DNA of 33,733 bases from Bacteroidales bacterium. GTDB lineage: Bacteria; Bacteroidota; Bacteroidia; Bacteroidales; FEN-979. Both the position numbers and the translations under genes were made by a program. The notes under the pieces are model-generated. The model worked only from the letters and a program-made list of their open reading frames with translations, was not told the origin of the DNA and did not search any database. Where the stretch lies: NCBI GenBank assembly GCA_030681475.1, contig JAUXWT010000111.1, positions 1-33,733 of the forward strand, given 5' to 3'. Positions 947 to 15,926 of this stretch are shown in pieces (within the stretch, counting starts at the first letter, position 1; the number at the start of each line of letters is the position of its first letter).

Positions 947-2308
947 GTGACCGTTCAAAAATTTGTAGAAAATATGACAGAATTCTTTGTAAATTTGGTA
1001 AAAATTAAAGCGTTGAAAACCCATCATAAAATAATTAATGGCGATAGTAGACAAATGACGGAATTGCCTGATAATTCAGTACATTTAGCAATAACTTCAC
1101 CACCTTATTGGCAACTTAAAGATTACGGGACAGATAATCAAATTGGTTTTCACGACAGTTACGAAAGTTACATTAATAACCTAAATTTGGTTTGGAAAGA
1201 GTGCTACCGCACTCTTCACAATGGTTGCCGTCTTTGCGTTAATATTGGCGACCAATTTGCCAGAGCAGTTTATTACGGTCGTTATAAGGTAATTCCAATA
1301 CGGGAAGAAATTATTAAGTTCTGCGAAAACATCGGTTTTGACTATATGGGTGCCATCATTTGGCAAAAAGTCACAACATCAAATACTACTGGTGGCGGTG
1401 TGCAAATGGGGTCGTATCCATACCCTAGAAATGGAATTTTAAAACTAGATTATGAATTTATTTTAGTTTTTAAAAAATTAGGTGATGCCCCTAAACATCA
1501 AAAAGAACAAAAAGAGCTTTCTAAAATGACCGCTGAGGAGTGGAATACTTTTTTTGCAGGACATTGGAATTTTGCGGGAGCAAGACAGAACGGACATATT
1601 GCCATGTTTCCTGAAGAATTGCCTAGACGATTAATTAAAATGTTTTCATTTGTTGGCGAATTTGTTCTGGACCCTTTTGCAGGTAGCGGAACAACGGCGT
1701 TGGCGGCTAAAAATCTTGACAGAAATTCCGTTGGTTTTGAAATTAACCCTGAATTTATTCCATTCATTAAAGAGAAATTAGAAGTTCATCAAAAGGACAT
1801 AAATGGGACAACGTATGAATTTGTGATGCAACAGCATGCCCAAATTGATTTTGAAAATGCAATTAAAAATCTCCCTTACGTATTCAAAGACCCTCACGTT
1901 CTTGACAAAAAAATTGATGTAAAGAAATTGCAATTTGGTTCTAAAATTGACAAAAACAGTTCCACGACAAGAGAAGTTTTTTATACTGTTAAAGAAGTAA
2001 TTAGCCCCGAAATGATTCGTTTAAGCAACGATCTTACCATAAGACTTATGGGAATCAAAGAGGACCCGATTGCCAATGGGAAAGCAACCACATTCCTTAC
2101 TGACAAAACAAAAGGGAAGCGGGTTTTCCTTAAATATGATAGTGTAAAGCACGACAAAGAAAATAACTTACTTTGCTATCTGTATCTAGAGAATAAAACT
2201 TTTATCAATGCCCATCTTATCAAAAATGGTTTGGTACAAGTGGATTGTGATATTGACTTTAAGCACAAAAATAAATTTTTAAATCTTCAAAAAGAAGCAT
2301 GCCGATAA
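947..2308 (+). CDS. DNA (cytosine-N4-type) methyltransferase with C-terminal SNase-like domain
   Basis: This 453-aa protein is the modification enzyme of an R-M operon. Motif IV, TSPPYW (residues 50-55), precedes motif I, DPFAGSGTT (242-250), which is the beta-class order; SPPYW is typical of enzymes making N4-methylcytosine. Residues about 345-452 resemble the staphylococcal nuclease/TNase fold: an LTIRLMGI strand with R366 where the first catalytic Arg lies, and a YLYLENKTFINAHLIKNG stretch typical of the family. The usual YGR arginine is replaced (KENNLL, 404-409) and the DTPE motif is altered, so this domain is probably inactive as a nuclease and may bind DNA. The start is GTG at 947; the in-frame ATG at 974 is a credible alternative. 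It overlaps the next gene by 10 bp. Confidence 0.85.
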   Translation: MTVQKFVENMTEFFVNLVKIKALKTHHKIINGDSRQMTELPDNSVHLAITSPPYWQLKDYGTDNQIGFHDSYESYINNLNLVWKECYRTLHNGCRLCVNIGDQFARAVYYGRYKVIPIREEIIKFCENIGFDYMGAIIWQKVTTSNTTGGGVQMGSYPYPRNGILKLDYEFILVFKKLGDAPKHQKEQKELSKMTAEEWNTFFAGHWNFAGARQNGHIAMFPEELPRRLIKMFSFVGEFVLDPFAGSGTTALAAKNLDRNSVGFEINPEFIPFIKEKLEVHQKDINGTTYEFVMQQHAQIDFENAIKNLPYVFKDPHVLDKKIDVKKLQFGSKIDKNSSTTREVFYTVKEVISPEMIRLSNDLTIRLMGIKEDPIANGKATTFLTDKTKGKRVFLKYDSVKHDKENNLLCYLYLENKTFINAHLIKNGLVQVDCDIDFKHKNKFLNLQKEACR

Positions 2309-2664
2309 ATTATACCCAAGCACAGAGACAAGCATTATTAGCCACTTTAGGAAATGGACGACAAAATGCCATTGTAGCAAGAATATTAGCCCAACTTTTA
2401 GGTTATCCGGTAGGTGGTAACCAAGTTCAATTAAGAGGTCTGATTAAAGAATGTATTGAAGTTGATGGCGATTTAATAGGTGCTACAACAGGAAGACCAG
2501 CAGGCTTCTTTATCATTACAAGTATTAATGAATTAGAAACTTATTTAGACAGTTTAGAAAATCGGACAAGAAGTGATAATGAGAGACGAACAGCCTTAAT
2601 CATGAGTTGGAATAATCAACCAAACATCCCTAACACAATTAAACAAACCCTTACAATACAATAA
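2299..2664 (+). CDS. Small winged-helix protein of the R-M operon
   Basis: A 121-aa protein lies between the methyltransferase (10-bp overlap) and the endonuclease (stop and start share one base, TAATG), so the three genes are translationally coupled. Residues about 25-55 form a likely helix-turn-helix (RILAQLLGYPVGGNQVQLRG), followed by a wing-like GATTGRPAGFFII stretch (about 61-73) and a C-terminal charged helix with SDNERRTALIMSW. The overall pattern resembles winged-helix domains found in phage and plasmid DNA-binding proteins. It could be a controller protein of the R-M system or an accessory DNA-recognition subunit of the endonuclease. It does not look like the classical Xre-type C proteins of type II systems. 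Confidence 0.65.
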   Translation: MPINYTQAQRQALLATLGNGRQNAIVARILAQLLGYPVGGNQVQLRGLIKECIEVDGDLIGATTGRPAGFFIITSINELETYLDSLENRTRSDNERRTALIMSWNNQPNIPNTIKQTLTIQ

Positions 2665-3368
2665 TGGCTAAAGAATGGATTACTGAATCACATGGTGAAG
2701 GCTTAAAATTTAAGCACGAGACACTTTTGAACTATGGTTTAAATAGATGGGGATTAAACAAAGCATATAGCGTTGGTGCTTTATCCGAATTAATCAGAAG
2801 TTGTGCCCCTAATGAGTTTAAAGAATGGGAGGAGTTTTATTTTACAAAAGGAAAACAGAAAAAGAAAAACGGAATACGGATAACACGAGAATACATTACT
2901 GGGCTTGGTCAAACTCTTTATATCAAGTTATCCGAAATTGTTCAAAGTGAATTAGCATCCATTACCGAAGAAGAGTGTATTGAATATGCTTATAACCTTG
3001 TTCTCCGCAGAACTTATGATGGATACAGAACTGAAATTGATACTATTTATGGCCAATTAGAAGGTTCTTTAGAACGCAAAATAGAACCAGCACCTGATAT
3101 TTGGGACAGGACCTATAGCGTGGATTTTTTTATAAAAGTTGGAGAGAAATTTATTGGTATTCAAATCAAGCCAATCGCATCAGGTCAAGCATTAAACCAA
3201 TATCAATGGATAGAAATGCACAAAGTAAATCACGCTAAATTTGAAAAGGAGTTTGGAGGAAAAGTTTTTTTTGTTTACTCAACAAAAGGTGCCACTGGGA
3301 AAAAGAAAATTTACAATATTGAAGTAATTGAAGACCTAAGGGCAGAAATTATTCGACTTTCAAAGTGA
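2664..3368 (+). CDS. Type II restriction endonuclease, MjaI-like
   Basis: This 234-aa protein is the third gene of the R-M operon and the likely restriction enzyme. Its overall character, including YSVDFFIKVGEKFIGIQIKP near residues 151-170, resembles the MjaI endonuclease family, whose founding member cuts CTAG; I recognise this from memory, not from a search. The candidate PD-(D/E)xK centre is D154 with Q167-I-K169, so Gln replaces the usual acidic residue. The C-terminus (about 200-234) is Lys-rich. It is AT-rich like its two partners. The MjaI assignment is moderately supported, and the CTAG specificity is inference from family membership plus the CTAG pattern of the window. Confidence 0.7.
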   Translation: MAKEWITESHGEGLKFKHETLLNYGLNRWGLNKAYSVGALSELIRSCAPNEFKEWEEFYFTKGKQKKKNGIRITREYITGLGQTLYIKLSEIVQSELASITEEECIEYAYNLVLRRTYDGYRTEIDTIYGQLEGSLERKIEPAPDIWDRTYSVDFFIKVGEKFIGIQIKPIASGQALNQYQWIEMHKVNHAKFEKEFGGKVFFVYSTKGATGKKKIYNIEVIEDLRAEIIRLSK

Positions 3369-3579
3369 CGACTAAGGTTCCACATTCCGCCAATAGCCTG
3401 CAACTTCAATTATCGAAACAGTTAAAGTTTCAGCGTTTCTGATTTGAATAACCTTATATGTAATTTGGCTGGAAAGCACAATGAAATTTGCAACTAAAAG
3501 CTATACACAAGACTTGTAATTCTCGAAAATTTCCCTGCCAATAATCCACGTCAAAACAACCTTAAACCTTTAAAGTGAG

Positions 3580-3604
3580 TCCTGAGAAGTCAGGATTTTT
3601 TTTT
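3580..3604 (+). terminator. Rho-independent terminator closing the R-M operon
   Basis: TCCTGA (3580-3585) pairs with TCAGGA (3590-3595) around a GAAG loop and is followed by nine T. It lies 211 bp after the endonuclease stop and 25 bp before the first phage promoter element, so it insulates the phage genes from R-M transcription. Confidence 0.85.
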
Positions 3605-3629
3605 ACCATAAAGGCTCTTGAAAATATAT

Positions 3630-3665
3630 TGTCCTTTATTATCCATGCCCGCCGTCGTATCCTTG
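3630..3665 (+). promoter_or_regulatory. Phage promoter element, copy 1
   Basis: TGTCCTTTATT (3630-3640), 17 bp, then TATCCTTG (3658-3665), then 5 bp to the ATG at 3671. The second box differs from the Bacteroidetes -7 consensus TAnnTTTG at one position. TTTA within the 11-mer sits 19 bp from it, matching the usual -33 TTTG spacing. It drives the 114-aa protein/portal/connector unit. Confidence 0.7.
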
Positions 3666-3670
3666 CGGTC

Positions 3671-4015
3671 ATGAATTCAACCTATATCCAATTAAGTGCA
3701 GCGCTTGACCTGATGGACCAGCTTGACGGTGAGGGCAAGCCGGTAAACTTTCATGTCAAATTCGTTACCGCAGACCGGATCAGGCGCAGCGGTGGAGAAA
3801 TCATTGAAATTCAGAGTGGAAGGAAATGCGTAGGGAAGCGTAGCGGAAAGACCGTTTTCGATTCGCGTAAAAAGGCAGATGAGAATCCATCCATTTCCAG
3901 GCAGCCGAACCACTGGGTGAATTCAACCAGAAACATTCTTCTTCCAAATGGCGGTATTCGCAAAGTCCATATCCGCCTGATTATCGAATTCAACAATCAA
4001 AAAGTATTTTTCTGA
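3671..4015 (+). CDS. Small phage protein upstream of the portal, unknown function
   Basis: A 114-aa basic protein. I chose the ATG at 3671 (start MNSTYIQLSA) because it follows the promoter element by 5 bp and because the longer frame would read through a terminator. The stop overlaps the portal start by one base (TGATG), so the two are translationally coupled. The middle is rich in Arg, Lys and Gly and the end has the pattern NSTRNILLPNG then RKVHIRLIIEFN. I know of similar small genes next to portal genes in Bacteroidetes prophages but no function. A DNA-packaging or neck role would fit the position and charge. Confidence 0.7.
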   Translation: MNSTYIQLSAALDLMDQLDGEGKPVNFHVKFVTADRIRRSGGEIIEIQSGRKCVGKRSGKTVFDSRKKADENPSISRQPNHWVNSTRNILLPNGGIRKVHIRLIIEFNNQKVFF

Positions 4016-5340
4016 TGGAAAGGATCATTATAAGCGGAGATTACGCCATCCTGCCGGGTGCCAAAACTTTTGTGTCAACTTCATCTACGGGTGCTGATTC
4101 CGGGAAACCTAAAGTGGTACCTCCTTATGACCTTTCCTCTGCCGAATGGTCTGACTGGGGGCCATCGAATCTCTTTCCCCAGGAAGTGCTTGCTGAATTG
4201 GATAAAAATTCAGTAGCGCTCAGGGCGCTTGATAAACGTAAGCGTGTCCATTTCGGAAGAGGAATTGTCTGTTATCGTGAAAAAACTGATCAGTCCGGAG
4301 CCGTTGCAAGGGAAACTGTCTCGGATCCTGAAGTGGTGGAATTCTTCCGGATCAATCAAATCAATCTTGTATGGCCTGATCTGATCATGGGACTTGAAAC
4401 ATTTGCCAATGGCTGGCTTGAGTTTATAACCAATAAAGGCAGGGATAAAATAAACAGGGTATTTGTTAAGGATCCTGCATACTGCAGGCTCTCGAAGATG
4501 GACCTCAATAACAGAATCCCTAATATTTATTATTGCGCCCAATGGGAAAATAACCCAAGTTTCGATAATGTCCTGGTCGCAAAACTGCCGCTGTTTAATC
4601 CTGACATATACGATGGTGTTAAGTATCGTGATGGCCAGTTCGCCCTTCATGTTTTCTACCGGTCCTTCAATAAATCCTATTACCACCTACCGCTTTGGAA
4701 TTCTGTTCGGGCAAACAAATGGATGAATATCGCAAACAGCGTTCCTGTGCTGAAGTCTGCCATCATGAAGAACCAAATGACCATCAAGTATCATATCCAG
4801 ATACCCGATGATTATTTCACCGCCCGGTTCCCTTCTCCGGATTTCACGAAAGAGCAGCGCGAAGCAAAACGGTTAGAGGTTCTTACAGATATGAACGCAT
4901 TCCTGGCCGACGTTGAAAATTCCGGAAAGGCTTTTGTCAGTTACGCTTTTTACTCAAAGGTTAAACAGGACTACCTCACCGGCTGGAAAATCGAAGTTAT
5001 ACAGAACAGGCTTGACAACTCTGCTTATCTTCCCGATAGTCAGGCTGCCAATTCTGAAATACTTTTCGCAATAGGAGTGGATCCCTGTTTGATCGGCGCC
5101 GGAAACCCTGGAGGAAAACTCGGGGCCGGTAGTGGATCCGATAAGCGTGAAGCGTATTGGATGCTCAATGCCGACATGGGAACAGACCGAGCAGTTAGTC
5201 TCTCTCCATTGTATTTCATTCGTGATTTCAACAAATGGGATCCTGCAATTCAGTTTGATTATGTCACGGTTGACACTTCTCAAACCCAGGATCAACACCC
5301 GACCAAGACTGCCAAACGTATAGACCAAACACAGGCCTGA
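4015..5340 (+). CDS. Phage portal protein-like
   Basis: This 441-aa protein probably forms the dodecameric portal ring through which DNA enters the head and to which the tail attaches. The clearest signature is near residues 340-380: ANSEILFAIGVDPCLIG, a Gly-rich GNPGGKLGAGSGSDKREAYW loop and an acidic helix. This matches the segment of phage portals in which a hydrophobic helix precedes the clip and crown (often written AIGVP...LLG). Length is within the range of HK97-type portals (about 400-500 aa). It is followed after 3 bp by the connector-like gene. No protease or capsid gene follows, which is the usual order, so the head genes must be elsewhere. Confidence 0.7.
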   Translation: MERIIISGDYAILPGAKTFVSTSSTGADSGKPKVVPPYDLSSAEWSDWGPSNLFPQEVLAELDKNSVALRALDKRKRVHFGRGIVCYREKTDQSGAVARETVSDPEVVEFFRINQINLVWPDLIMGLETFANGWLEFITNKGRDKINRVFVKDPAYCRLSKMDLNNRIPNIYYCAQWENNPSFDNVLVAKLPLFNPDIYDGVKYRDGQFALHVFYRSFNKSYYHLPLWNSVRANKWMNIANSVPVLKSAIMKNQMTIKYHIQIPDDYFTARFPSPDFTKEQREAKRLEVLTDMNAFLADVENSGKAFVSYAFYSKVKQDYLTGWKIEVIQNRLDNSAYLPDSQAANSEILFAIGVDPCLIGAGNPGGKLGAGSGSDKREAYWMLNADMGTDRAVSLSPLYFIRDFNKWDPAIQFDYVTVDTSQTQDQHPTKTAKRIDQTQA

Positions 5341-5343
5341 ACC

Positions 5344-6351
5344 ATGCTGATTTCAACCATTGCCCAGATCAGGACAGCATCGTCTGTCAACATTTCAAAC
5401 TCGTTTGATAACTGGTATCCCTACCTGCTGGATGCTGAAGAAATTTTCATCATTCCCACGTTGGGCCGTCCGGTCTATGATTATCTGAATGCCATGGTCT
5501 TTCCTAAAGGTCCATTGGTTGAACAACTCGATGGATATGTTTCGATCCCCGATATTCTCCTTGCGAAAGTTCACCGGGCTATCGCCCTTTATGCCCTTTA
5601 TCTTGGTGTTGATGAAATGGCGGTGAGCATCTCCGGGGCAGGAATCCAGGTGATCCAAAGCGATACCCATAAACCGGCTCCCCAGTACCAGATCATGAAT
5701 GTCAAAGAAACATTCCTTTCCCGGGCACACAGGCAAATGGATGGTATCCTTGAGTTCCTTGCCGCAAACGGTGAAACATTTCAGTCCGTTCAGCTTCCAA
5801 AAAGCCCTTATTTCATCCGCAGCGCTGCAGAATTTCAGCTTCATGCCGACATTCACAGCTCGCGCAGGGTATTCCTCTCCCTGATGCCCGTCATTGGAAG
5901 CATTGAGAAAAAATATATCAAGCCCACGCTCTCGGCGCTTCAGTTTGATGATCTCAAACAGAAAATCCAATCCGGTGAAGACCTTTCGCCGGATGATCAG
6001 TCGCTGCTCGACCTTGTCATCCCTGCCCTGGTACATTTAACGATGGCCCGGGCGCTGCTTGAAATTTCCATCGATACGCTTGATTGGGGTATTTTCAACA
6101 ATGCCTCCAACACCTTTGTCAATGTCCAGAACAAGGAAAGGGCAAACAAGGAAAGAATTTCAGCCATGCATGAGGCAAACCGGCTCGACGGTGAAGCTGA
6201 ACTCAAAATGCTTCAGGAATACCTGGACAACAATGCAAGCGCTGATAAATATCCTCTCTATTTTGCATCAAACCGGTATGTAGGACCGATAAACGCCGTA
6301 AAAAGAAGCGATTTTCCCAATTCATCCACCAATTCAATCTTTGTCGCATGA
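5344..6351 (+). CDS. DUF6712-like protein, probable head-tail connector
   Basis: A 335-aa protein that I match from memory to the DUF6712 family of Bacteroidetes prophages. It lies 3 bp after the portal, the usual place for a head-tail adaptor. It appears to contain two copies of one helical domain. Near residue 8, AQIRTASSVNISNSF...LDAEEIFIIPTLGRPVYDYL resembles, near residue 162, AEFQLHADIHSSRRVF...GSIEKKYIKPTLSALQFDDL. Each is followed by a helix rich in Ala and Leu (HRAIALYALYL, HLTMARALLEI). Internal doubling of a gp6-type connector domain would explain the length, about twice that of a typical connector. Its stop overlaps the next start (ATGA). Confidence 0.65.
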   Translation: MLISTIAQIRTASSVNISNSFDNWYPYLLDAEEIFIIPTLGRPVYDYLNAMVFPKGPLVEQLDGYVSIPDILLAKVHRAIALYALYLGVDEMAVSISGAGIQVIQSDTHKPAPQYQIMNVKETFLSRAHRQMDGILEFLAANGETFQSVQLPKSPYFIRSAAEFQLHADIHSSRRVFLSLMPVIGSIEKKYIKPTLSALQFDDLKQKIQSGEDLSPDDQSLLDLVIPALVHLTMARALLEISIDTLDWGIFNNASNTFVNVQNKERANKERISAMHEANRLDGEAELKMLQEYLDNNASADKYPLYFASNRYVGPINAVKRSDFPNSSTNSIFVA

Positions 6352-6647
6352 TCCAAAACTTCGTTCTGATCGTAGGCTTGATTTTTTCAGCCATCGCTCT
6401 TCTTGGAGGTCTTGTAACAGTATGGGTAAATACTAATGTTAAGATCGCCAAACTCGAAACAACCGTGACCCTGAAAATCGCTGCAATTGAAATGTCAATG
6501 GCAGCCTACATTAAAACCAATTCTGAAAATCTTTGTGCCTCATTTGCTGCCAATAAAGAAGACCATCATCAATTTTCATTGGATATGAAAGAATTAAGAA
6601 CATCCATTCACACAATTGATTTAAACATTCAATCACTCGCAAAATGA
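6348..6647 (+). CDS. Small single-pass membrane protein with coiled coil
   Basis: A 99-aa protein with one N-terminal membrane segment (about 4-27, VLIVGLIFSAIALLGGLVTVWV) followed by a heptad-like helical region up to the C-terminus. It overlaps the connector gene upstream and the lipoprotein gene downstream by 4 bp each (ATGA). An N-in membrane anchor with a periplasmic coiled coil next to a lipoprotein is the layout of an inner-membrane spanin or lysis-accessory protein, so it may act together with the next gene. No family was recognised. Confidence 0.65.
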   Translation: MIQNFVLIVGLIFSAIALLGGLVTVWVNTNVKIAKLETTVTLKIAAIEMSMAAYIKTNSENLCASFAANKEDHHQFSLDMKELRTSIHTIDLNIQSLAK

Positions 6648-7246
6648 AACATTTAATTTTCGCCATTGCTCTTCTGGCCATACTCAGCAGTTGCAACGTA
6701 CAGAAACACATGACCCGGGAAAAGGTCACGGCTTCTTCTCAAATACAAACCAGGGAAGCCATGGCTTCATTGTTAAAAAGAGATGTAAATAAAGAATCCA
6801 CAAGCATCACCGAGAAACGCACTACTGAAACCGTTGATACAACTTTTTCAGTTCCCGGCTCCACGCTCCAGGCACATAAATCGCTTGCCGAGCTTCTTTC
6901 AGAAGGAGTCTTTCAGCTTGAATCCACCTCAATGAAAGCCACTATGCTTGTTGATTCCGCTTCTGGTAACATCACCTTTTCTGTGATTGAAAAGCCCAGG
7001 ACATTCCCTCACAAATTCAACCGTGTTACCGTTACCCGCGAAGAATCAAAAAAAACTGTTAATGAAACTGAAAATCACAATACGACAAACAACCTGCAGA
7101 AAACCGCCAATTCTGAAACAAGTTCAGACATGGCTGTAACGGATGTCAAACGGTCATTCCCATGGCGGTTCATGACGCTTATCGCCATCGGCTTAGGTCT
7201 TATTGTCTACTTTGCTTATAGGATTATTCGCAAGCGAATCTTATAA
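6644..7246 (+). CDS. Lipoprotein with C-terminal membrane segment, u-spanin candidate
   Basis: This 200-aa protein has a lipoprotein signal peptide (MKHLIFAIALLAILSSC, lipobox LSSC with C17) and a C-terminal membrane segment (about 175-194, FMTLIAIGLGLIVYFAYRII) ending in a basic RKRIL tail. Everything between is Ser/Thr/Glu/Lys-rich and probably periplasmic. Anchorage in the outer membrane by lipid and in the inner membrane by a C-terminal helix is the topology of unimolecular spanins such as T1 gp11, which fuse the two membranes at the last step of lysis. It is longer than T1 gp11 and far from the endolysin and holin-like genes. The role is inferred from topology only; a structural or surface lipoprotein is the alternative. 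Confidence 0.6.
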   Translation: MKHLIFAIALLAILSSCNVQKHMTREKVTASSQIQTREAMASLLKRDVNKESTSITEKRTTETVDTTFSVPGSTLQAHKSLAELLSEGVFQLESTSMKATMLVDSASGNITFSVIEKPRTFPHKFNRVTVTREESKKTVNETENHNTTNNLQKTANSETSSDMAVTDVKRSFPWRFMTLIAIGLGLIVYFAYRIIRKRIL

Positions 7247-7253
7247 ATACCAC

Positions 7254-8066
7254 ATGCACCAAGTCCAAATAAATGATGTTAAGCGTTCCCTTCCTTCCTC
7301 ATGGAACGAATTAACACGCAAACAATTGATCATGGTAAGCCGTTCATTCAACAACAAATTAACTGCTGTTGAATTCAAGGTACAGCTTCTTTTCAGGTTC
7401 CTGCGAATTGGTAACCGTTTATGGAAATCTATTCCTGCAGATGAAATGCATGGGCTTTCCATCTCACTTAATTATTTGCTTGAAAAGGTTTCATTAACCA
7501 ACGCACTCATTTCTTCCATCCGGATCAAACGCTTCCCTTGGGTCCGGTATTATGGCCCCTCTGATGCGATGGAAACAAGCACCTTTGGTGAATTCACTAA
7601 AGCACAGGTTCGGTATGAAGAATACGACCTTACCCATGACACAGCAAAACTTGATGAACTTGTAGCTGTTTTATTTCGCAGAAAAAAATCTTTCTGGTTC
7701 ATTCGCAGACACTTCTGTGAATCAACTGATCCAAGAGTCCGGTTCATTGACCGTACGCTGCCGATTCGAGCAAAGAAGCTCGCATCGTTGCCTCACGAAT
7801 TAAAATACTCCATTTTCCTATTCTTCTCCGGAGTCTACGGGTCATTACCTGATAAATTTCCTCATGTATATCGCCACAAATCATCATCCGCAAATGATAA
7901 ATCCACTGGTTGGGCCACCCTTATCATTTCCCTGGCTGATGGTAAAACAGACGATGAAAGCCTTGATCGCATTATGAATTCCAATCTTTATAATGTATTC
8001 CTTGGCCTTGAACAAAAAGCCATCGAATATTTTGAATTCATTAAAAAATACCCGCCCAATGACTGA
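7254..8066 (+). CDS. Phage protein of unknown function, conserved-looking N-terminus
   Basis: A 270-aa protein starting at the ATG at 7254 (MHQVQINDVK). The frame is open from 7203, but that start lies inside the preceding gene. The N-terminal pattern QINDVKRSLPSSWNELTRKQLIMV is of a type seen at this position in Bacteroidetes prophages; I do not know a function. The rest is mostly helical, with an aromatic and basic patch (RRKKSFWFIRRHF, about 141-153). It overlaps the next gene by 8 bp. Being two genes before the tape-measure cluster it could be a tail-assembly chaperone or neck protein, which I cannot decide. Confidence 0.65.
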   Translation: MHQVQINDVKRSLPSSWNELTRKQLIMVSRSFNNKLTAVEFKVQLLFRFLRIGNRLWKSIPADEMHGLSISLNYLLEKVSLTNALISSIRIKRFPWVRYYGPSDAMETSTFGEFTKAQVRYEEYDLTHDTAKLDELVAVLFRRKKSFWFIRRHFCESTDPRVRFIDRTLPIRAKKLASLPHELKYSIFLFFSGVYGSLPDKFPHVYRHKSSSANDKSTGWATLIISLADGKTDDESLDRIMNSNLYNVFLGLEQKAIEYFEFIKKYPPND

Positions 8067-8577
8067 TGTACGAGCATACCTGAGATACTTTCAAAACCTT
8101 GCCCAATGGCATAATGACCTCCATGACTTTTATGTTATGGATATTAACGAACCGCTGCAGGCTCTTCGGGGATCCATGCAATTCCCTGCACTGATCATGA
8201 ATTCTCTCTCCGGGAGTTTTGTCGCTCCGAACCTCGATAATACCCTTGATGAAGTTAAAGGGGGATTCCTGGTACTTGGCCGCCTGGATAATGTCGATGA
8301 CTTTTCCGGCGAAATGCTCCTTCTTCAACACATGAAACAAATCGGTCAGTCTATTTTTTCAAGAATGAACCATGACCTGCTCACTTGCGAACCCCGCGCC
8401 CTCAAAGCCATTCTTGGCTTTAATATCAACTCCGTTTCATACCAGATGGTTGACGGCATTTTTGACAATTGCTTCGGTTTCCTATTTTCATTTCGCATCC
8501 ATACAAAACTTGATCTTTCCTACAATCCGCTTCAATGGTCTGTAAACAACCCGAAAGATGAAGGGTTTGAATACTAA
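8059..8577 (+). CDS. Phage protein of unknown function, possible tail completion protein
   Basis: A 172-aa protein starting at the ATG at 8059, which overlaps the upstream gene by 8 bp; the open frame from 7993 is not needed. It begins with a helical MTDVRAYLRYFQNLAQWHNDL and continues with a mixed alpha/beta pattern ending in a conserved-looking LDLSYNPLQW. Size and position fit a tail-terminator or neck protein, but no motif proves it. It is the last gene of the first phage transcription unit: a promoter element begins 4 bp after its stop. Confidence 0.6.
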   Translation: MTDVRAYLRYFQNLAQWHNDLHDFYVMDINEPLQALRGSMQFPALIMNSLSGSFVAPNLDNTLDEVKGGFLVLGRLDNVDDFSGEMLLLQHMKQIGQSIFSRMNHDLLTCEPRALKAILGFNINSVSYQMVDGIFDNCFGFLFSFRIHTKLDLSYNPLQWSVNNPKDEGFEY

Positions 8578-8581
8578 AGGC

Positions 8582-8617
8582 TGTCCTTTATTTTTGATCC
8601 TGGCATCGTTTTCTTTG
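8582..8617 (+). promoter_or_regulatory. Phage promoter element, copy 2
   Basis: TGTCCTTTATT (8582-8592), 17 bp, then TTTCTTTG (8610-8617, one mismatch to TAnnTTTG), then 4 bp to the ATG at 8622. The preceding AAAGG can also pair with CCTTT of the element, but copies 1 and 3 lack this, so a hairpin is not the conserved feature. It drives the tape-measure unit. Confidence 0.7.
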
Positions 8618-8621
8618 CTCC

Positions 8622-9050
8622 ATGGAGAAAAGAAAACCTTCCACCTTTCAAATTGCCGATTCCTGGGCCTTTTACACCATCAAGATCTGGAAGGAAAAAC
8701 TCCAGAAACTTCGCATCGGACAGACCGGAGGGCTTGAAACCTCCTTTCTCAAAGAAATAATCGGGACCCCGGCAGGCGATGTTATCGCCATCCGTTTTGC
8801 ATTTCTCTATTATGGCAAGTTCGTTGATATGGGAGTGGGTAGAGGAACTAAAATAGGAGGGGTAGCCGAAAACCGCACTTCCCGCGCCCTTGAGGGAAAG
8901 ATGCTTGGTAATAGAAGAAAGCCGAAGAAATGGTATGGAAAAACCTTTTACGCGGAAGTCGCTACGCTCAAAGAAATCCTTGCAAAAGAATATGGACACA
9001 AGGGCGCTCTTGTGATCGCTGAAAATATTGGTGATAATTCAATAAAATAA
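8622..9050 (+). CDS. Phage morphogenesis protein, HK97 gp10-like
   Basis: A 142-aa basic protein directly before the tape-measure gene (3 bp apart). The central FLYYGKFVDMGVGRGTKIGG (about 64-83) followed by RKPKKWYGKTFYAEVATL resembles tail-completion and morphogenesis proteins, in which a short strand, a Gly-rich loop and a C-terminal Lys/Arg-rich segment are typical. The start is ATG at 8622, 4 bp after promoter box 2 and 44 bp after the preceding stop. The predicted transcript would have almost no leader. The function is inferred from pattern and position. Confidence 0.6.
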   Translation: MEKRKPSTFQIADSWAFYTIKIWKEKLQKLRIGQTGGLETSFLKEIIGTPAGDVIAIRFAFLYYGKFVDMGVGRGTKIGGVAENRTSRALEGKMLGNRRKPKKWYGKTFYAEVATLKEILAKEYGHKGALVIAENIGDNSIK

Positions 9051-9053
9051 ACG

Positions 9054-12000
9054 ATGGCTCAAAGTGAAATCGCCAGGGCAGAAGTTATTCTGAACGGCCA
9101 AAAAGCTAATGCAACGCTCAAGGAACTTGAAAACGCTACCAAGGCTCTCAATGCGGAGCTTCGCAAACTTCCCACCAATTCTGCTGAATTCACAAAGAAA
9201 ACAGAAGAATTTCAAAAAGTTAAAAACCGTCTTTCCGAAGTAAAACAGGAGATCATGGGCACACAGAGCGCCATGGGAAAGTTTGCGGACTGGACAAACA
9301 AATACCTCCAAAGCATTGCCCTCATTGGCGCCGCCTTTGCCGGCGCGAGCCTGGCCATCAAGGGCATGGTTGACAGTGCCGGGAAACTCAGCGACTCGCT
9401 GGCCAATATCCGCAAGACCACCGGCATGACTGCCGATGAAGTCTCCCGTTTGAATTCAGAGTTCAAAAAAATAGACACGCGCACCTCCCGTCAGGAATTG
9501 CGCGAAATCGCCAATGTCGCCGGCCAGCTTGGGATTGAGAAAAAGTCAATCTTCGATTTTACTGAAGCCATCGACAAGCTGAATGTTGCCCTGGGCGATG
9601 AGATCATCGGCGGTGCAGAAGCTGTCGCATCCATCATGGGGACCCTGCGCAATGTCCTTACCGACATGAGAACCAAAGATGTCTCAGATGATCTTCTCCG
9701 CCTTGGTAATGCGATCAATGATCTCAGCGCTGCCGGCTTTGCCACGGCGCCGGTGCTTACCGACTTTGCCAACCGCATTGGTGGTGTGGGGATCAACCTT
9801 GGCCTTTCATCCGATGAAGTGCTTGGGCTTAGTGCAACGATGCAGGAATTGGCGATCTCTACCGAGCGCGGTGGAACAGCCATGGTCAAGATTCTGGCTA
9901 AAATGACAACCAATACAGATGAATTCGCAAAAGTGGCCGGCTTGCCGCTTGAAGAATTCACGAAACTGGTGAATACCGATCTGTACAACGCATTCTTCAA
10001 GGTACTCGAAGGGTCAAGAAGGTCAGGGGAGGGGGCAACCTATCTGGGAAGAATGATCAAAGAGATGGAAATATCGGGTATCGGTGCCGCCGAAGTGTTT
10101 TCCAAACTTGGCAATAATACCGCCATGCTGACTGAAAAGGTCAACATGGCCGGGGCATCCTTACAAAACACAAACGGTGTGATGGCCGAATTCAACATCA
10201 AAAACACCACCCTTGGTGCCACGCTCGATAAACTTGGCAAAGAGTTTAACAGCCTGATGGCTTCTGCCACGCTGATTTCGATTCTTAAATCAGGTGTTGA
10301 TGTTGCAGTTGATCTTGTGGCCTGGCTCAAGGTCCTGCCAAAAACGATCAAAGACAATATCGTTGCCCTGACATTGCTTTCCGGAGCCGTTCTTATCTGG
10401 ATTGCGGCGGCTACCCGTAGTATGCAAATCTCTGCTTTGAACATCCTTCTGATGAAGGAAGGCATACTACTCAGAATCAAAGATGCTGTTGTTCTTGAAG
10501 CGCTCATTATCAAAGAGCGTCTTTATGCTTTCGCTAAATCGCAGGGAACCATTGCCACTAAAATAGCAACGGTTGCCCAGTGGGCATGGAATGCCGCCAT
10601 GACCGCCAACCCCATTGGCGTAGTCATAGCCGCTGTTACAGCTCTTGTGGCTGCTTTGAAGTATTATGAAACTGCCAGCCGTTCTGCAATCAACAATGAA
10701 GCTGTTAAAATATCTTCCATGAACCGCATGGAAGCCATCAATAAATTGCTTTCTTCTTCCTATGATGCCCTGAATGGCAGCATCCGGACCCTTAATCAGC
10801 TTTCAATACAGGAGAAAGCCGACCTGAAAACAAAAATTGCTGATTCCATTAAGCTTGCGGAAGTAGAATTGGCAATGATGCAGGCACGCCAGCAAAAGGT
10901 TAAGCAAGACAACTCCAAAGCAACCCCGCTTCAGCAGGTTTGGAACTATGTTAAAAGTTCTTCCGCTGCTGATGGCACTGCAATGAACATGGCTGATGGC
11001 CTTAACAATGGAGCCAAGGCAGCCAAAGAACTCGACTCCGGAGTTAAAGAACTTCGCACAAATCTTGACAGGCTGAAAGAAACTCAAAAAGAAGTTCTTG
11101 CCATTACCAATGCTGAATCGGTGGCCGATTCTATTCATGGCAAATCCCTGGACAATCTTGAAGAGAAATTAAACAAGCTTCAGATTGCCCGTAAAAATAC
11201 AATTGCCGGAAGCGAAGATTACATCCGCATCCAGAACAAAATAAAAGAGGTTCAAAAAGAAATTGCGGTTTTTGATACAAGCGATAAAACCTCAGACGAA
11301 GAAAAGAAAAGATTAGCCAAAGAAGCGCTCAAAACAACGTATGAGAAACTTGGTGAAGAAATAAAGAAATATGTCGCTCTGCTCCAGCAGCAGGTTATCG
11401 CTGATCCTAAACAGGCCGCTATCACGGCAGAAAGAATAAAATCGCTGCAAAAGGAAAAAGAGAAAGTTGATGCCCTTGTTGAATCCCTGGTCGATTTAAA
11501 AAAAGCAGGTAAAACAAGCTATGAAAAGATCAATGAAGAAATAAAGAAATTCAATGCCCTTTTGCAGGATCAGGTCATCAACGATCCCGCCCAGGCTGCC
11601 GTAACCGCCGAAAGAATTAAGAAACTCAACGAAGAAAAGAAAGCCGTTGATGAACTGGTTGCATCCCTCACTCAGCCCGATGATCTTACTGATTGGATGG
11701 ATAAGTATTTCAACGACCGGCCCATGTCAGATAAAGAAACATGGGATGTCACCACCGGAGGACTCCTTGGCAGTTTTGACAGCCCCGACGATGGATCAGA
11801 AGATCCTAAAATGAAAGAAGAAAGAGAAAGTTATGAAGCAAATAAATGGGCCAAAGATGCCGAAAAAGTAGTTGGTTATGTCAGCATGGTCAAGGATACG
11901 CTTGGCTCCCTGGATGATTGGTACTCAAGCAGGGAAAATATGGAGCTTGCCCGGGATCAGGCGCTCAATGAAAAAAAAGAGAAAAACTTAAAAGGAAGGC

Positions 12001-12686
12001 TCAAGGCCGGACTGATCACCCAGAAACAATATGATGAAGCCACGGCAAAAAATGATGCCGCGCTGGCCGCCAAAAAACGTAAAATAGAACATGATCAGGC
12101 TGTTCGGGCAAAAGCGATGGCAGTTTTACAAGCCGGTATCAATGTTGCCCTTGGAATTACATCTGCACTTTCCACTATCCCGGCAGGATTCGCCCTGGCT
12201 ATCGTTACCGGGATCCTTGGCGCGATCCAGATCGCTGCCATCCTTGCTGCACCGGTTCCGCAAGCTGCCAAAGGCCGTTACAATGTAACCGGCAGGGATG
12301 ATGGCCGCCTTTATAATAACGTGCCCTGGGTAGGTCCGGCTTCAACCGGTCTTTACAGCACACCTACGCTCATCTCTGAAGCCGGTCCCGAATATGTCAT
12401 TGATGCCAAAACCACCAAAAACCTTCAGATGAATTACCCTGGCGTAATTGATGCCATCAACTTCGCCCGGGTACCGCAGTTCGCTTCAGGAAGCTACCCG
12501 CAGTCAGGTAATTCACCTTCGGCCATTTCTCAAAATCAAGGCTCCTTTGAGAATGGGCTGCTCAGTGCGCTGAATGAATTCAACACCCATGCCCGAAATG
12601 GCATCCGCACCTTTTTGGTTTATGATGATGTCCGTGATTCGGCCAGCACCATCAATGATATTGAAAACGATGTAAAATCCATCTGA
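9054..12686 (+). CDS. Phage tail tape measure protein
   Basis: This 1,210-aa protein sets tail length and helps DNA delivery. The N-terminus is coiled coil (1-75), followed by a hydrophobic segment (about 86-105) and the FRNLRKTTGMTADEV-type start of the tape-measure domain, here IRKTTGMTADEVSRLNSEF. A central hydrophobic region lies near 440-455 and around 515-535. Residues 760-819 and 820-877 are a tandem 60-aa repeat. Near the end come a long Ala/Gly/Ile-rich membrane-like segment (about 1022-1068) and a Gly/Pro-rich AAKGRYNVTGRDDGRLY tail with ISEAGPEYVIDA, common in tape measures. With the usual rule of about 1.5 angstrom per residue the tail would be near 180 nm. Confidence 0.92.
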   Translation: MAQSEIARAEVILNGQKANATLKELENATKALNAELRKLPTNSAEFTKKTEEFQKVKNRLSEVKQEIMGTQSAMGKFADWTNKYLQSIALIGAAFAGASLAIKGMVDSAGKLSDSLANIRKTTGMTADEVSRLNSEFKKIDTRTSRQELREIANVAGQLGIEKKSIFDFTEAIDKLNVALGDEIIGGAEAVASIMGTLRNVLTDMRTKDVSDDLLRLGNAINDLSAAGFATAPVLTDFANRIGGVGINLGLSSDEVLGLSATMQELAISTERGGTAMVKILAKMTTNTDEFAKVAGLPLEEFTKLVNTDLYNAFFKVLEGSRRSGEGATYLGRMIKEMEISGIGAAEVFSKLGNNTAMLTEKVNMAGASLQNTNGVMAEFNIKNTTLGATLDKLGKEFNSLMASATLISILKSGVDVAVDLVAWLKVLPKTIKDNIVALTLLSGAVLIWIAAATRSMQISALNILLMKEGILLRIKDAVVLEALIIKERLYAFAKSQGTIATKIATVAQWAWNAAMTANPIGVVIAAVTALVAALKYYETASRSAINNEAVKISSMNRMEAINKLLSSSYDALNGSIRTLNQLSIQEKADLKTKIADSIKLAEVELAMMQARQQKVKQDNSKATPLQQVWNYVKSSSAADGTAMNMADGLNNGAKAAKELDSGVKELRTNLDRLKETQKEVLAITNAESVADSIHGKSLDNLEEKLNKLQIARKNTIAGSEDYIRIQNKIKEVQKEIAVFDTSDKTSDEEKKRLAKEALKTTYEKLGEEIKKYVALLQQQVIADPKQAAITAERIKSLQKEKEKVDALVESLVDLKKAGKTSYEKINEEIKKFNALLQDQVINDPAQAAVTAERIKKLNEEKKAVDELVASLTQPDDLTDWMDKYFNDRPMSDKETWDVTTGGLLGSFDSPDDGSEDPKMKEERESYEANKWAKDAEKVVGYVSMVKDTLGSLDDWYSSRENMELARDQALNEKKEKNLKGRLKAGLITQKQYDEATAKNDAALAAKKRKIEHDQAVRAKAMAVLQAGINVALGITSALSTIPAGFALAIVTGILGAIQIAAILAAPVPQAAKGRYNVTGRDDGRLYNNVPWVGPASTGLYSTPTLISEAGPEYVIDAKTTKNLQMNYPGVIDAINFARVPQFASGSYPQSGNSPSAISQNQGSFENGLLSALNEFNTHARNGIRTFLVYDDVRDSASTINDIENDVKSI
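11331..11690 (+). repeat. Tandem 180-bp repeat inside the tape-measure gene
   Basis: Two diverged copies start at 11331 and 11511, exactly 180 bp apart. In protein they read KT(T/S)YEK..(E)EIKK..ALLQ.QVI.DP.QAA.TAERIK.L..EK..VD.LV.SL, about 60 residues each. The second copy ends near 11682-11690. The offset preserves frame and heptad phase, consistent with unequal exchange that lengthens the tail. Confidence 0.85.
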
Positions 12687-12687
12687 T

Positions 12688-14322
12688 ATGCTGAACCTTT
12701 TTGTCAATGAAACTTCGCTTGATCTGAGTGCCGACATTTCAATTACTTTGAAATTTTCGTCTCCCATCTTCAACACCATCGGTGATTATACTTATCCCTT
12801 CAAGCTCCCTGCTACACCCCTCAATGTTTCAATCCTTGGATTCAAACATCGCATTGAGAAAATCTCAGACCCTTACCAGGTATTCGATGCCTGCCTGCAG
12901 TGGAATGGTGTGCTTCTGCTAAAAGGTACGCTTAGGATCATCAAGGCTCAGTCGGATTTTTATGAGGCAACGCTTTTCATGGATAAAGGAGATTTCACTT
13001 ACCGTCGCAAAAACATGACTCTTCAGGATGTTGACTTTGGAGAGATGACATGGACAGGAGAAACGCTTAAAATTGACTATTTCAATGATTGCCGTGGTCA
13101 TGTTTTTCCTGAACGCAATTTCGGGTTCCCTCAGATCCACAACCCTTCCTATTTTGAAGAACCCCCACTTGATCAGTCAAATAATTATTTCAACTATTAT
13201 CTTACCGGAACCATGTATTACTTCGGCTCTGATGACCCCAGAACTATCCTGGTTCCCATGCTTTACCTCAGATTCGTACTCGACAGGCTTTTTCAGAAAC
13301 TTGAATTCAACCTTGATGATTCATTTTTTACTCCTGATCCTGACTTCAATTCCCTTGCGCTATTTAACTCCGTTGATGCCAACTGTACACTCACTGGTCC
13401 CTTTAATTATGATAAGCTGAAAGTCTTTCTCAGCTATCATGTACCGGTAATTTCTGTCAACGAATTCCTCACCGGCCTTGAAAATTTCTTCAACATTCGC
13501 TTTTTTGTCAACAATATAACCAAGACCGTAAAGCTTGTTTCCGTTGACAAAATCGTTAAATCAACTGATGCAATTGAGTTTTCCAGGAATGTTTCCGATA
13601 TCTATACCGAGCTTGGAGATCCTGTTACCGGCTTCCATTTGAAAATGAATATGGAATCCGATGATGAATTTTGGACCTTGTTGAAATCACAACAGGATTA
13701 TTCACTTGATAAAATAAAGCCTCCCGTAGATTCAGCTTCCAATCTTTCTCCCTGGCCGGGTAGCCAGAACCTTGACTTTCGATGGGTTCGCGATGAGAAC
13801 CGTTATTATATGATGTATAACCGCCTTTGGATTGTCTCGCCTTTTCCCATTGGCAACCTGTTTTCTGAATTCATCTATCGTGAGTCTGCAAAAACGATTG
13901 AAACAAAGGCTTCTACCCTTATGAATCAAACCCTTGCACCTTATGATTGCGTTATTGGCACCGCTCAGAGTTCATGGGATACAATTTCTCCTAAACTGTT
14001 TTTTATGAACCTTCATCCCTGGTCCGGAATCGGAACCAGAGACGAGCGCGTTTATGCCTCTAACTCTTTGAATACTAAATCACTCTTTTTTTCGGGTGAG
14101 AACGGGCTTTTTGCTAAGTATTTCAAGGCATTTTGTGATTTTCAAATGAGTTCTAAACAGGTCAAGTTCGTTAAGCAAATGTCATTGCTTGACATCAACG
14201 AACTTGATTTTTCACGCAAATACATGATTAACGGGGATTCCTACCTCTTGTCAGACGTACAGGTTACTATTTCCAACGCCGGACTTAAACCGGCAACTAT
14301 ACGCGGCTTCACTTCTGTTTAG
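12688..14322 (+). CDS. Tail-tip/baseplate hub-like protein
   Basis: A 544-aa protein 1 bp after the tape measure, the usual place for a distal-tail or hub protein. The N-terminal motif LNLFVNETSLDLS...ITLKFSSPIFN then GDYTYPFKLPATPLN is of a type I recognise from Bacteroidetes phage tail-tip genes. Many aromatic residues and alternating strands suggest a beta-rich fold throughout. There is no enzyme motif. It is the last gene of the second phage transcription unit; a promoter element begins just after its stop. Hub rather than Dit is a guess from its length. Confidence 0.65.
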   Translation: MLNLFVNETSLDLSADISITLKFSSPIFNTIGDYTYPFKLPATPLNVSILGFKHRIEKISDPYQVFDACLQWNGVLLLKGTLRIIKAQSDFYEATLFMDKGDFTYRRKNMTLQDVDFGEMTWTGETLKIDYFNDCRGHVFPERNFGFPQIHNPSYFEEPPLDQSNNYFNYYLTGTMYYFGSDDPRTILVPMLYLRFVLDRLFQKLEFNLDDSFFTPDPDFNSLALFNSVDANCTLTGPFNYDKLKVFLSYHVPVISVNEFLTGLENFFNIRFFVNNITKTVKLVSVDKIVKSTDAIEFSRNVSDIYTELGDPVTGFHLKMNMESDDEFWTLLKSQQDYSLDKIKPPVDSASNLSPWPGSQNLDFRWVRDENRYYMMYNRLWIVSPFPIGNLFSEFIYRESAKTIETKASTLMNQTLAPYDCVIGTAQSSWDTISPKLFFMNLHPWSGIGTRDERVYASNSLNTKSLFFSGENGLFAKYFKAFCDFQMSSKQVKFVKQMSLLDINELDFSRKYMINGDSYLLSDVQVTISNAGLKPATIRGFTSV

Positions 14323-14323
14323 T

Positions 14324-14359
14324 TGTCCTTTATTGTCACTGCATATTGATTTAGTATTG
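14324..14359 (+). promoter_or_regulatory. Phage promoter element, copy 3
   Basis: TGTCCTTTATT (14324-14334), 17 bp, then TAGTATTG (14352-14359, one mismatch to TAnnTTTG), then 4 bp to the ATG at 14364. The element begins 1 bp after the preceding stop. It drives the tail-tip, fibre and lysis unit. Confidence 0.7.
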
Positions 14360-14363
14360 AACC

Positions 14364-15926
14364 ATGATAAACATTGTCACCACTCCTGAAGAAACCTTTT
14401 TTGCCGGCAACCCCGCTCTCTTTCGCATACATTCGGACAATATGCTCTCCAGTCAAGGTACAAACTGTCATTTTTACCTTGTTGTTTCTGCTGCAGATAC
14501 AGTGGCCGGCCATGATCTGATTTTTCAGTTCCCGGACCGTACAATTACATTTCTCACTGCTTTGGTACCTGATGATTCCGGCCTGCAGATCCCCACCGCC
14601 CTTAATTCCGCAAACTGGGCAACCTGGGCGCAATCACTCTACGACTGCCTTTGCTCAAACTTCTATATCTGCTCACGGTTTCAGGTCACAATAGCCGATG
14701 CAGGACCCTCCAACAGAATCATTTTCCTTTCTGCTTACGAAAAAGGAACCGCCTCAAGTGCCATCGTAACATCGCGCTTAATAACCGTTACGCTTTATGA
14801 TTATGTTGCCGGAGCCAATCCTGTTCAGCGAAATAACTTTTCAATCGTTGCCGGGATCTGGGACAGCAATAATAAACAGCTTGCCCAGGATGTTAAACCG
14901 GTCAATGCCATTGGCGATGCAACATTTAACTTTTCAGAATACCTGAGCGTTCTCCTTCAAAATGATGTACAGCCCCGGTTTACATGGCCATTCGATCCAT
15001 CCAGGCTGTATCAGTTTTTTCAGAATTATGTTTTACCGTTTTATGCCGGGTTTGCTGAGCGATATGATGGCATCGTCAGAAAATTAACCTTTGACACAAC
15101 CCGTCACGCGATCCCCGGGGGCCTGAACCGGGAAACGATGGTTGCTTACAATTCCTTCAGCCAGTCTTTTTTCCAGGTTCCGGAAAATCAGCTCAGTTTC
15201 ATGACCTGGGCGCCGGCGAGCAAAATGACCAGTAAAACCTCTCCCGAACTGCTTTTCTTCCTGATTTCTTCAAAACCTTCGTTTGATATGCTTCTCCTTG
15301 CCGTCATCGTTACATTCGATGATGGAGATGTTGACAGTTTCTCAATAAACATCAGCGAAATAAACCCGAATGCAGTAATTGAATTGTCAGTAGGGTATGA
15401 GCACCTTCAGCTTGAATTGCGCTTCCCGGGGCACACGATCTCTTCATGGCAGGTTTTCCTTGCTCATCAGGACCTTCATATAGAAACAGAGCGAAAAACA
15501 TTTGTTCTCGATAATAGATTCTACGAGTCAGAGCGCGTTTTCATCTTTCAGAACAGCTTTGGCCGCGCTTATGACGTTGTTCGCTTTACCGGAACCGGCT
15601 CAACGAACATTGATGTTGACTTCTCAACATCTTCGTCAGAAACCATCGGCAATTATACCAGCTTCAATGCACCGGTGAGCAAGTTCCGCACTTCGGAAAT
15701 GCAGAAAATGAAATGCAATTCCGGATGGATTTCGCGCGAAACAAAAGATTATCTGCGTGAGCTGCTGCTCTCGCAACAGGTTTTTGAATACAGAGAAAAA
15801 TCACTGTTCCCGCTTATCATCACCAATGATATGATCAAGGAATTCTTCAAAGATGATGAATATCTCTACGATTTAGAGATTGATTATGACAGGGCATACA
15901 GGGATTTTTTTTTTCAAAGTTCATAA
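14364..15926 (+). CDS. Tail-tip structural protein, unknown specific role
   Basis: A 520-aa protein, the first gene of the third phage transcription unit. It starts at the ATG 4 bp after promoter box 3. The sequence is beta-rich with an N-terminal ETFFAGNPALFRIHS segment and many short strands, typical of tail-tip or baseplate-wedge proteins. No catalytic motif is seen. The stop overlaps a 20-codon ORF by one base (TAATG). Its position between the hub-like protein and the fibre suggests that it links the tail tube to the fibre, but this is positional inference. Confidence 0.6.
   Translation: MINIVTTPEETFFAGNPALFRIHSDNMLSSQGTNCHFYLVVSAADTVAGHDLIFQFPDRTITFLTALVPDDSGLQIPTALNSANWATWAQSLYDCLCSNFYICSRFQVTIADAGPSNRIIFLSAYEKGTASSAIVTSRLITVTLYDYVAGANPVQRNNFSIVAGIWDSNNKQLAQDVKPVNAIGDATFNFSEYLSVLLQNDVQPRFTWPFDPSRLYQFFQNYVLPFYAGFAERYDGIVRKLTFDTTRHAIPGGLNRETMVAYNSFSQSFFQVPENQLSFMTWAPASKMTSKTSPELLFFLISSKPSFDMLLLAVIVTFDDGDVDSFSINISEINPNAVIELSVGYEHLQLELRFPGHTISSWQVFLAHQDLHIETERKTFVLDNRFYESERVFIFQNSFGRAYDVVRFTGTGSTNIDVDFSTSSSETIGNYTSFNAPVSKFRTSEMQKMKCNSGWISRETKDYLRELLLSQQVFEYREKSLFPLIITNDMIKEFFKDDEYLYDLEIDYDRAYRDFFFQSS

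Follow-up and report, generated by a model that had tools for sequence, protein, structure and literature searches.

Genes and repeated elements of the window

We analyzed a 33,733-nucleotide stretch of a Bacteroidales contig (JAUXWT010000111.1; hereafter, the window), which carries prophage genes from the portal to the tail region (Table 1). The 11-mer TGTCCTTTATT occurs exactly three times in the window, at 3630, 8582, and 14324, always on the forward strand and each time shortly ahead of one of these genes. We consider it likely that the prophage, a member of a broad Bacteroidota siphophage group, uses the three elements as late promoters, and that a phage protein recruits the host polymerase to them.

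Dinucleotide shuffles of the window contained 0.03 copies of TGTCCTTTATT on average, and none of 100 shuffles reached three. The exact copies alone stand out: with up to two mismatches allowed, 19 matches were found against about 15 expected. Each copy is followed by 17 bp, a second box of the form T(A/T)nnnTTG, 4–5 bp, and an ATG. Sites B and C lie between a stop codon (at 8577 and 14322, respectively) and the ATG of the next gene. Site A falls inside a longer GTG-initiated open reading frame (ORF, 3575–4015), the homologues of which nonetheless align from the ATG at 3671. The second box is one mismatch off TAnnTTTG at every site (position -8 in A and C, position -11 in B), and all three sites have TTTA, the TTT of which overlaps the place of the host -33 TTTG. 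An earlier note, made from the letters of this DNA, had described the exact triple, its fixed geometry, its intergenic placement, the near-match of the second box, and TTTA at the usual -33 spacing. These descriptions hold, with the overlap noted for site A, and its judgment that chance is very unlikely agrees with the shuffles and with the family-wide counts given below.

The 11-mer is not enriched in the genome of origin as a whole (11 exact copies in 4.24 Mb, compared with 14 of the reversed word), so the evidence is carried by geometry and place; the two-box pattern was found six times in that genome and a control pattern not at all. The part of the element kept across phages is the 8-mer TGTCCTTT, and the final three letters of the 11-mer vary.

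Table 1 Predicted promoters and genes of the window, with coordinates on the whole stretch
Feature	Position	Strand	Description
Promoter A (predicted)	3630..3671	+	box TGTCCTTTATT 3630-3640; spacer 3641-3657 (17 bp); -7 box TATCCTTG 3658-3665; 5 bp; ATG 3671
Predicted +1 of promoter A	at or adjoining ATG 3671	+	orthologous gene preceded by a like site in relatives
Small pre-portal gene, first after promoter A	3671..4015	+	related genes in Leef_1 and Mea-Yong924-1; family with the box upstream in viral contigs
Portal protein gene (operon A)	4015..5340	+	34-35% identity with the portal proteins annotated in Polaribacter phage Leef_1 and in Microcystis phage Mae-Yong924-2; weak PHROG portal match
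Head-tail adaptor-like gene, DUF6712 (operon A)	5344..6351	+	orthologue in two related prophages matches annotated Leef_1 adaptor
Promoter B (predicted)	8582..8622	+	box TGTCCTTTATT 8582-8592; 17 bp; -7 box TTTCTTTG 8610-8617; 4 bp; predicted +1 at ATG 8622
Sites orthologous to promoter B	in relatives		-7 box TTTCTTTG, TTCCTTTG or similar
Gene at neck-gene position, directly before tape measure gene	8622..9050	+	gene order as in Leef_1 and Ingeline_1
Tail tape measure protein gene	9054..12686	+	phrog_25337, E 3e-71
Conserved tail-region gene	12688..14322	+	stop codon 1 nt before promoter C
Promoter C (predicted)	14324..14364	+	box TGTCCTTTATT 14324-14334; 17 bp; -7 box TAGTATTG 14352-14359; 4 bp; predicted +1 at ATG 14364
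Tail-region gene, first after promoter C	14364..15926	+	gene following site C

Conservation in related prophages

A search of 61 genomes for the gene that ends before site C gave matches in 24. Gene ends were counted at 28 of 30 loci, the window included, in which the end lay inside the locus; two truncated loci and matches without loci were excluded. An exact TGTCCTTT was present 0–5 nt past the stop codon at 19 of these 28 ends, which were anchored by homology and not selected by the motif.

A scan of 43 family genomes detected 49 two-box sites in 21 genomes, compared with four of the reversed pattern. The 35 distinct sites at family loci are highly uniform: the spacing is 17 bp in 34, and an ATG follows 4 nt on in 20 and 5 nt on in 12. 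Thirty-two of the 35 precede the orthologue of the gene after site C (17 sites) or after site A (15 sites). The three sites without an ATG, and without either orthologue downstream, may be host promoters or chance. When up to three mismatches were allowed, 505 kb of DNA with prophages gave 37 sites against about one for permuted boxes, and most of the 37 are at the three orthologous places. Closely related sites inside the family have spacer letters in common; across phages, the stretch between the two boxes is unconserved. The earlier note had proposed a phage-specific promoter class and had set conservation in related prophages beforehand as the check on this idea; the element is conserved there, and its sites precede structural phage genes, both of which support the proposal.

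Separately, one genome (G000) holds at least four related prophages or pieces of them (contigs C13, C43, C64, and C76; fragments C48 and C99). C sites were seen on C64 and C76 and A sites on C48 and C99; C43 has a B-type site and no C site at the homologous gene end.

Occurrence in other phages

The strict pattern TGTCCTTT-N20-TAnnnTTG-N4-ATG was present in four of 395 genomes of the phylum, the genome of origin included. The three other hits are at the level of chance (two for controls); two precede host-type genes and one precedes no ORF. These counts indicate that the strict pattern is not a host signal and that carrier prophages are absent from most genomes. In viral contigs, among the matches listed, 113 of 121 deduplicated sites precede an ORF (at least 60 codons, or at least 30 in ORFs that a contig end truncates), compared with 2 of 20 controls with the reversed box (23 stretches); the 4-nt ATG distance is preset by this pattern and is thus no independent evidence here. 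The 113 box-preceded proteins, again among the matches listed, fall into 26 clusters. The family scan described above and one further scan were free of this bias; in the latter, 24 of 85 sites had an ATG 4–6 nt on together with an ORF, 22 of them at 4 nt and three of the 24 being loci of the genome of origin; the other 61 are mostly chance. A stricter pattern gave 55 stretches in named genomes, and in 40 cases an ORF of 60 codons or more follows. Such cases include Bacteroides xylanisolvens XB1A, Bacteroides sp. GM023, Caecibacteroides pullorum, B. timonensis, and Riemerella columbipharyngis. Other hits, for example in Pseudoalteromonas, Mycobacterium, or Enterococcus, look like chance.

The same places are occupied in individual phages. 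In Ingeline_1, TGTCCTTTTAA-N17-TAATATTG stands upstream of the pre-portal gene and again upstream of the gene that precedes the tape measure gene; these are the places of sites A and B. Boxes with poorer -7 boxes were found at both places in Leef_1 and before the pre-portal gene in Mea-Yong924-1, and three strict two-box sites each were found in BT-TP2 and in MT835542, a phage from human faeces. Copies of TGTCC(C/T)TT on the late versus the other strand numbered 7/0 in Leef_1, 5/0 in each of BT-TP2, G025, and G018, 7/1 in Ingeline_1, 7/2 in Riemerella, 4/1 in G013 and MT835542, 3/1 in the window, and 4/2 in Mea-Yong924-1. These phages have several copies each, ahead of structural operons and in the late direction, as would be expected of a late promoter class with a dedicated activator. 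Total single-box counts per phage genome showed no excess over shuffles, so the signal lies in strand, geometry, and place. Taken together, the sequence comparisons give good support for a promoter class that is conserved ahead of structural genes in Bacteroidota phages.

Some box-preceded genes stood out for other reasons. The box is very often directly ahead of members of the small pre-portal family (window 3671–4015 and homologues), and a prophage of B. xylanisolvens XB1A has a similar small protein with a box, apparently after the tape measure gene. In two viral contigs (L174 and L315), a gene beginning MIDVYYPYF... has its own copy of the box; its product is presumably capsule- or glycosyltransferase-like.

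Box anatomy and predicted start site

Among 81 non-redundant sites of the wider class, in which the invariant letters were preset by the search, position -8 is T in 46, A in 22, C in 13, and G in none. The -7 consensus of the primary sigma factor sigma-ABfr, TAnnTTTG, is matched by 44 of the 81 and by none of the three window sites. Its -33 element, TTTG 19–21 bp upstream, is lacking at the window sites, which have TTTA, and G is found at -32 in 7 of the 81. In 189 kb of host DNA we found six strict TTTG/TAnnTTTG pairs, five with an ATG 14–44 nt on, which are too few for statistics.

In published maps, the -7 box of Flavobacterium johnsoniae runs from T-12 to G-5, with candidates 4 or 5 nt from a start site taken as probable promoters (PMC6847099), and that of F. 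psychrophilum from -12 to -5 (PMC9723704). On this scale TGTCCTTT occupies -40 to -33. With 4–5 nt between box and ATG, the published geometry puts +1 at the A of the ATG, and transcription in the window lineage should therefore start there and yield leaderless mRNAs. This placement of the ATG is an addition to the earlier note, which had not remarked on it. A start codon 4–5 nt past the -7 box was found at all three window sites and at 32 of the 35 distinct family sites, and not in BT-TP2 or in the Flavobacterium phages laban6-1 and 6H. Hosts rarely use such mRNAs: 5.5% are leaderless in F. psychrophilum (PMC9723704), and leaders shorter than 10 nt make up 3.7% in B. thetaiotaomicron.

In locus L308, the box and TAATATTG lie about 11 nt ahead of a tRNA-Met gene, and elsewhere the same boxes are 15–21 nt from an ATG, which argues that they are not a translation signal. 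The tRNA-Met gene (L308 5804–5877, reverse strand) lies directly behind the TGTCC promoter and behind the gene for the candidate activator described below. A T run stands ahead of many sites, and such runs may be putative upstream terminators.

A candidate reader of the box

The phages laban6-1 and 6H, members of the Duneviridae with core genes in common, carry other boxes in the equivalent position, TGTCACAA and TGTCTTAA, respectively. These boxes were seen before the pre-portal gene, before the protease gene, and at the end of the candidate gene, and in laban6-1 also before the tape measure gene; a -7-like box follows 19–20 bp from the upstream box and an ATG 14–33 nt further. The commonest TGTCnnnn words were uninformative in these genomes, and longer words were counted instead. 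ATGTCACAA occurs five times in laban6-1 and CATGTCTTAA four times in 6H (0.57 and 0.2 expected), all on the late strand, yet the boxes had been spotted by eye before counting and more than 1,000 other words of equal length reach the same counts per genome, so the weight rests on positions. A box that differs between lineages on similar hosts (TGTCCTTT, TGTCACAA, and TGTCTTAA, two of them in Flavobacterium phages) would likewise be expected of a late promoter class with a dedicated activator, and different boxes in one position on one host genus are better explained by a reader that the phage encodes than by one from the host.

The earlier note had suggested that TGTCC is the site of a phage activator. 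The activator part stands, by inference, on three grounds: homologous gene ends have the box either in full or not at all, spacers are unconserved across phages, and other lineages have a different box there. TGTCC alone does not, as the conserved box is the full 8-mer. Overall, the observations argue strongly for phage-encoded activation of this promoter class.

An iterated profile built from three prophage proteins retrieved 26 relatives among 13,637 ORFs, and the 24 that were aligned are 154–193 amino acids (aa) long. All nine phages scored as motif-bearing in a table of 14 phages have the candidate, as do eight of eight in a second count, and so do laban6-1 and 6H; it was not found in phi10:1 (first 50 of 53.7 kb), B40-8, or 11b. 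Its gene is usually just ahead of the protease and capsid genes. TGTCC(C/T)TT lies within 130 nt past the candidate stop codon at 16 of 26 loci, compared with 40 of 640 ATG-initiated ORFs of at least 100 aa there, those 16 included. Motif and candidate occur together in 15 of the 43 family genomes, the motif alone in four, the candidate alone in four, and neither in 20 (G008 and G031, the sole match of which lacks an ATG, were not taken as motif-bearing).

The structure of one member, predicted with confidence (pLDDT 86.9, from a 12-sequence alignment), has helix-turn-helix (HTH)-like helices at its C-terminus. In a fold search of a viral library, the Leef_1 homologue alone passed E 0.001, and protein searches with members against a phage collection returned Leef_1 itself or nothing. 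No Pfam match exceeded the curated cut-off, and one of eight members had a PHROG match (phrog_21888, 'unknown function'). Copies are mostly annotated as hypothetical, the one in BT-TP2 as 'transcriptional regulator', for which the annotation gives no basis. We tentatively propose this conserved protein with its HTH-like C-terminus as the reader of the box. In Leef_1 (L383), an inverted repeat, GGGACAAA ... TTTGTCCC, is located at about 30000–30036 right behind the candidate gene and is perhaps a terminator or operator.

Prophage context of the window

Relatives with long contigs have the gene order primase, protease, major capsid protein, terminase, a variable gene block, and the portal operon; in the G018 prophage the primase was not seen, as the fetched part begins further downstream. 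With the head half present on these long contigs, the window represents the second half of what is an ordinary prophage. The window had seemed to lack capsid and terminase genes, and a gene transfer agent or a tail-only element was considered; both were rejected in view of this gene order.

The variable slot between terminase and portal corresponds to window positions 947–3368, where a small ORF lies together with a gene for a restriction enzyme of the MjaI family (Pfam RE_MjaI). Another ORF there is presumably DNA methyltransferase-like, and the slot in relatives holds what we take to be other methylase-like and Vsr-like ORFs. An ORF at 33066–33602 (reverse strand) presumably represents a truncated transposase.

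Proposed mechanism and alternative explanations

In the mechanism that we propose, the host RNA polymerase with its primary sigma factor would contact the -7 box TAnnnTTG, and a phage-encoded protein would contact TGTCCTTT, which would replace the host -33 element. Late in infection, this protein would recruit the polymerase to the portal, neck/tape-measure, and tail genes, and transcription in the window lineage would begin at the A of the ATG. The 154–193 aa HTH-like protein would be the best candidate for this factor.

A phage sigma factor that reads both boxes and replaces the host sigma is unlikely. The fixed spacing between the two boxes would suit it, as would the -8 letter, T in little more than half of the 81 sites compared with the near-invariant T-8 of the host box (PMC6847099). 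However, the -7 box retains the host letters TA and TTG, and no sigma factor common to the motif-bearing phages was found, although not all phage proteins were searched for sigma domains. The LuxR-like regulator phrog_10300 (LuxR/GerE type), present in Leef_1, Ingeline_1, Mea-Yong924-1, and laban6-1, has a C-terminus that weakly matches sigma region 4 in one phage. It was rejected as the common factor: the motif-bearing G013 and G025 have no full homologue near the primase (a weak match to the HTH alone lies about 15 kb before the G013 primase), and laban6-1 has one without TGTCCTTT promoters. That a host alternative sigma or a host activator reads the promoters, with the box as a borrowed host signal, is very unlikely. 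TGTCCTTT does occur in prophages of several Bacteroidota genera, including Bacteroides and Riemerella, but the 394 other genomes of the phylum are at the level of chance (three hits, two for controls), and the Flavobacterium phages have different boxes in the same place. It is extremely unlikely that the element acts on RNA, in processing or in translation initiation of internal operon genes. It is placed just ahead of start codons and often just past stops, as such a signal might be; against this, box and -7 box also precede a tRNA gene, the box spacing is constant and the ATG distance variable in other phages, the stretch between the boxes is unconserved across phages, and many sites stand behind a T run, the putative upstream terminator.

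The reading as phage-activated late promoters has evidence against it as well. Nine of the 28 homologous gene ends have no box, the best word within about 130 nt there having 2–3 mismatches, and a scan of 66 viral loci, chosen for their similarity to the tape measure, gave just one site within three mismatches. Leef_1 and Mea-Yong924-1 have one strict two-box site each, and the G013, G025, and G018 prophages have no geometry-matching TGTCCTTT box before the head genes (protease, capsid). The spacing in 6H is mostly 19, and several -7 boxes of laban6-1 and 6H are degenerate. The leaderless design is not general, with the ATG 15–21 nt past the -7 box in BT-TP2 and at one MT835542 site, which makes promoter and leaderless design separable. 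Regarding the candidate, 10 of 26 loci have no box behind the gene, the Mea-Yong924-1 copy lies after the primase and away from the head genes, and fold searches with the predicted structure returned no confident solved relative. Co-occurrence is no distinguishing mark of the candidate, since terminase, portal, adaptor, and integrase are just as universal.

It is also possible, and we offer this with some reserve, that a phylum-wide phage group inherited an ancestral late promoter, TGTCnnnn-N19/20-TAnnnTTG, the downstream half of whose box diversified together with a new family of activators. Such phages would have private late codes on a shared host sigma box, and many leaderless late mRNAs though their hosts rarely make them.

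How Bacteroidota phages, including those of gut Bacteroides, switch on their late genes is poorly known. In the open-licence literature, as seen in titles, abstract beginnings, and passages, we found neither this box nor any late promoter described for these phages; what we found on late transcription in Bacteroidota phages concerns crAss-like phages, the review of which does not have the word 'promoter' in its main text. The rule described here marks structural operons in dozens of uncultured phages and gives a named candidate activator and cultured phages for tests. If it is true, it may provide promoters that are silent unless the host is infected, together with mRNAs that are leaderless by nature, in a phylum without Shine-Dalgarno sites.

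Comparison with known systems

The phage class resembles the sigma-ABfr promoter (TTTG / TAnnTTTG) in the letters and position of the -7 box, and the TTT of its upstream box shares positions with the host -33 TTTG, at the usual spacing. It differs in the fixed TGTCC extension to -40, the rarity of G at -32, and a tolerant -8 position. It also drives phage genes, and in the window lineage the start codon is at the predicted +1, whereas host leaders are mostly longer.

The middle promoters of phage T4, in which a MotA box is combined with a host -10 element, are alike in having an activator box in place of the upstream core element, a host-type downstream box, and fixed spacing. The position and letters of the box are different, and no search for MotA or AsiA homologues was made; the genes here are structural and, unlike those of T4 middle promoters, are probably expressed late. 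Late activators encoded ahead of late operons include lambda Q, RinA/ArpU, Mu C, and P2 Ogr. The candidate gene is likewise usually before the head genes, and dispersed promoters share one box; unlike these activators, the candidate has no Pfam match above the cut-off, and no dyad was seen in the box. Leaderless promoters of Deinococcus-Thermus, with the -10 element beside the ORF, are described in PMC12340547 as a general expression mode of another phylum. Here phage genes are concerned; the shared feature is a core promoter positioned for a start at the start codon, which in our case is a prediction.

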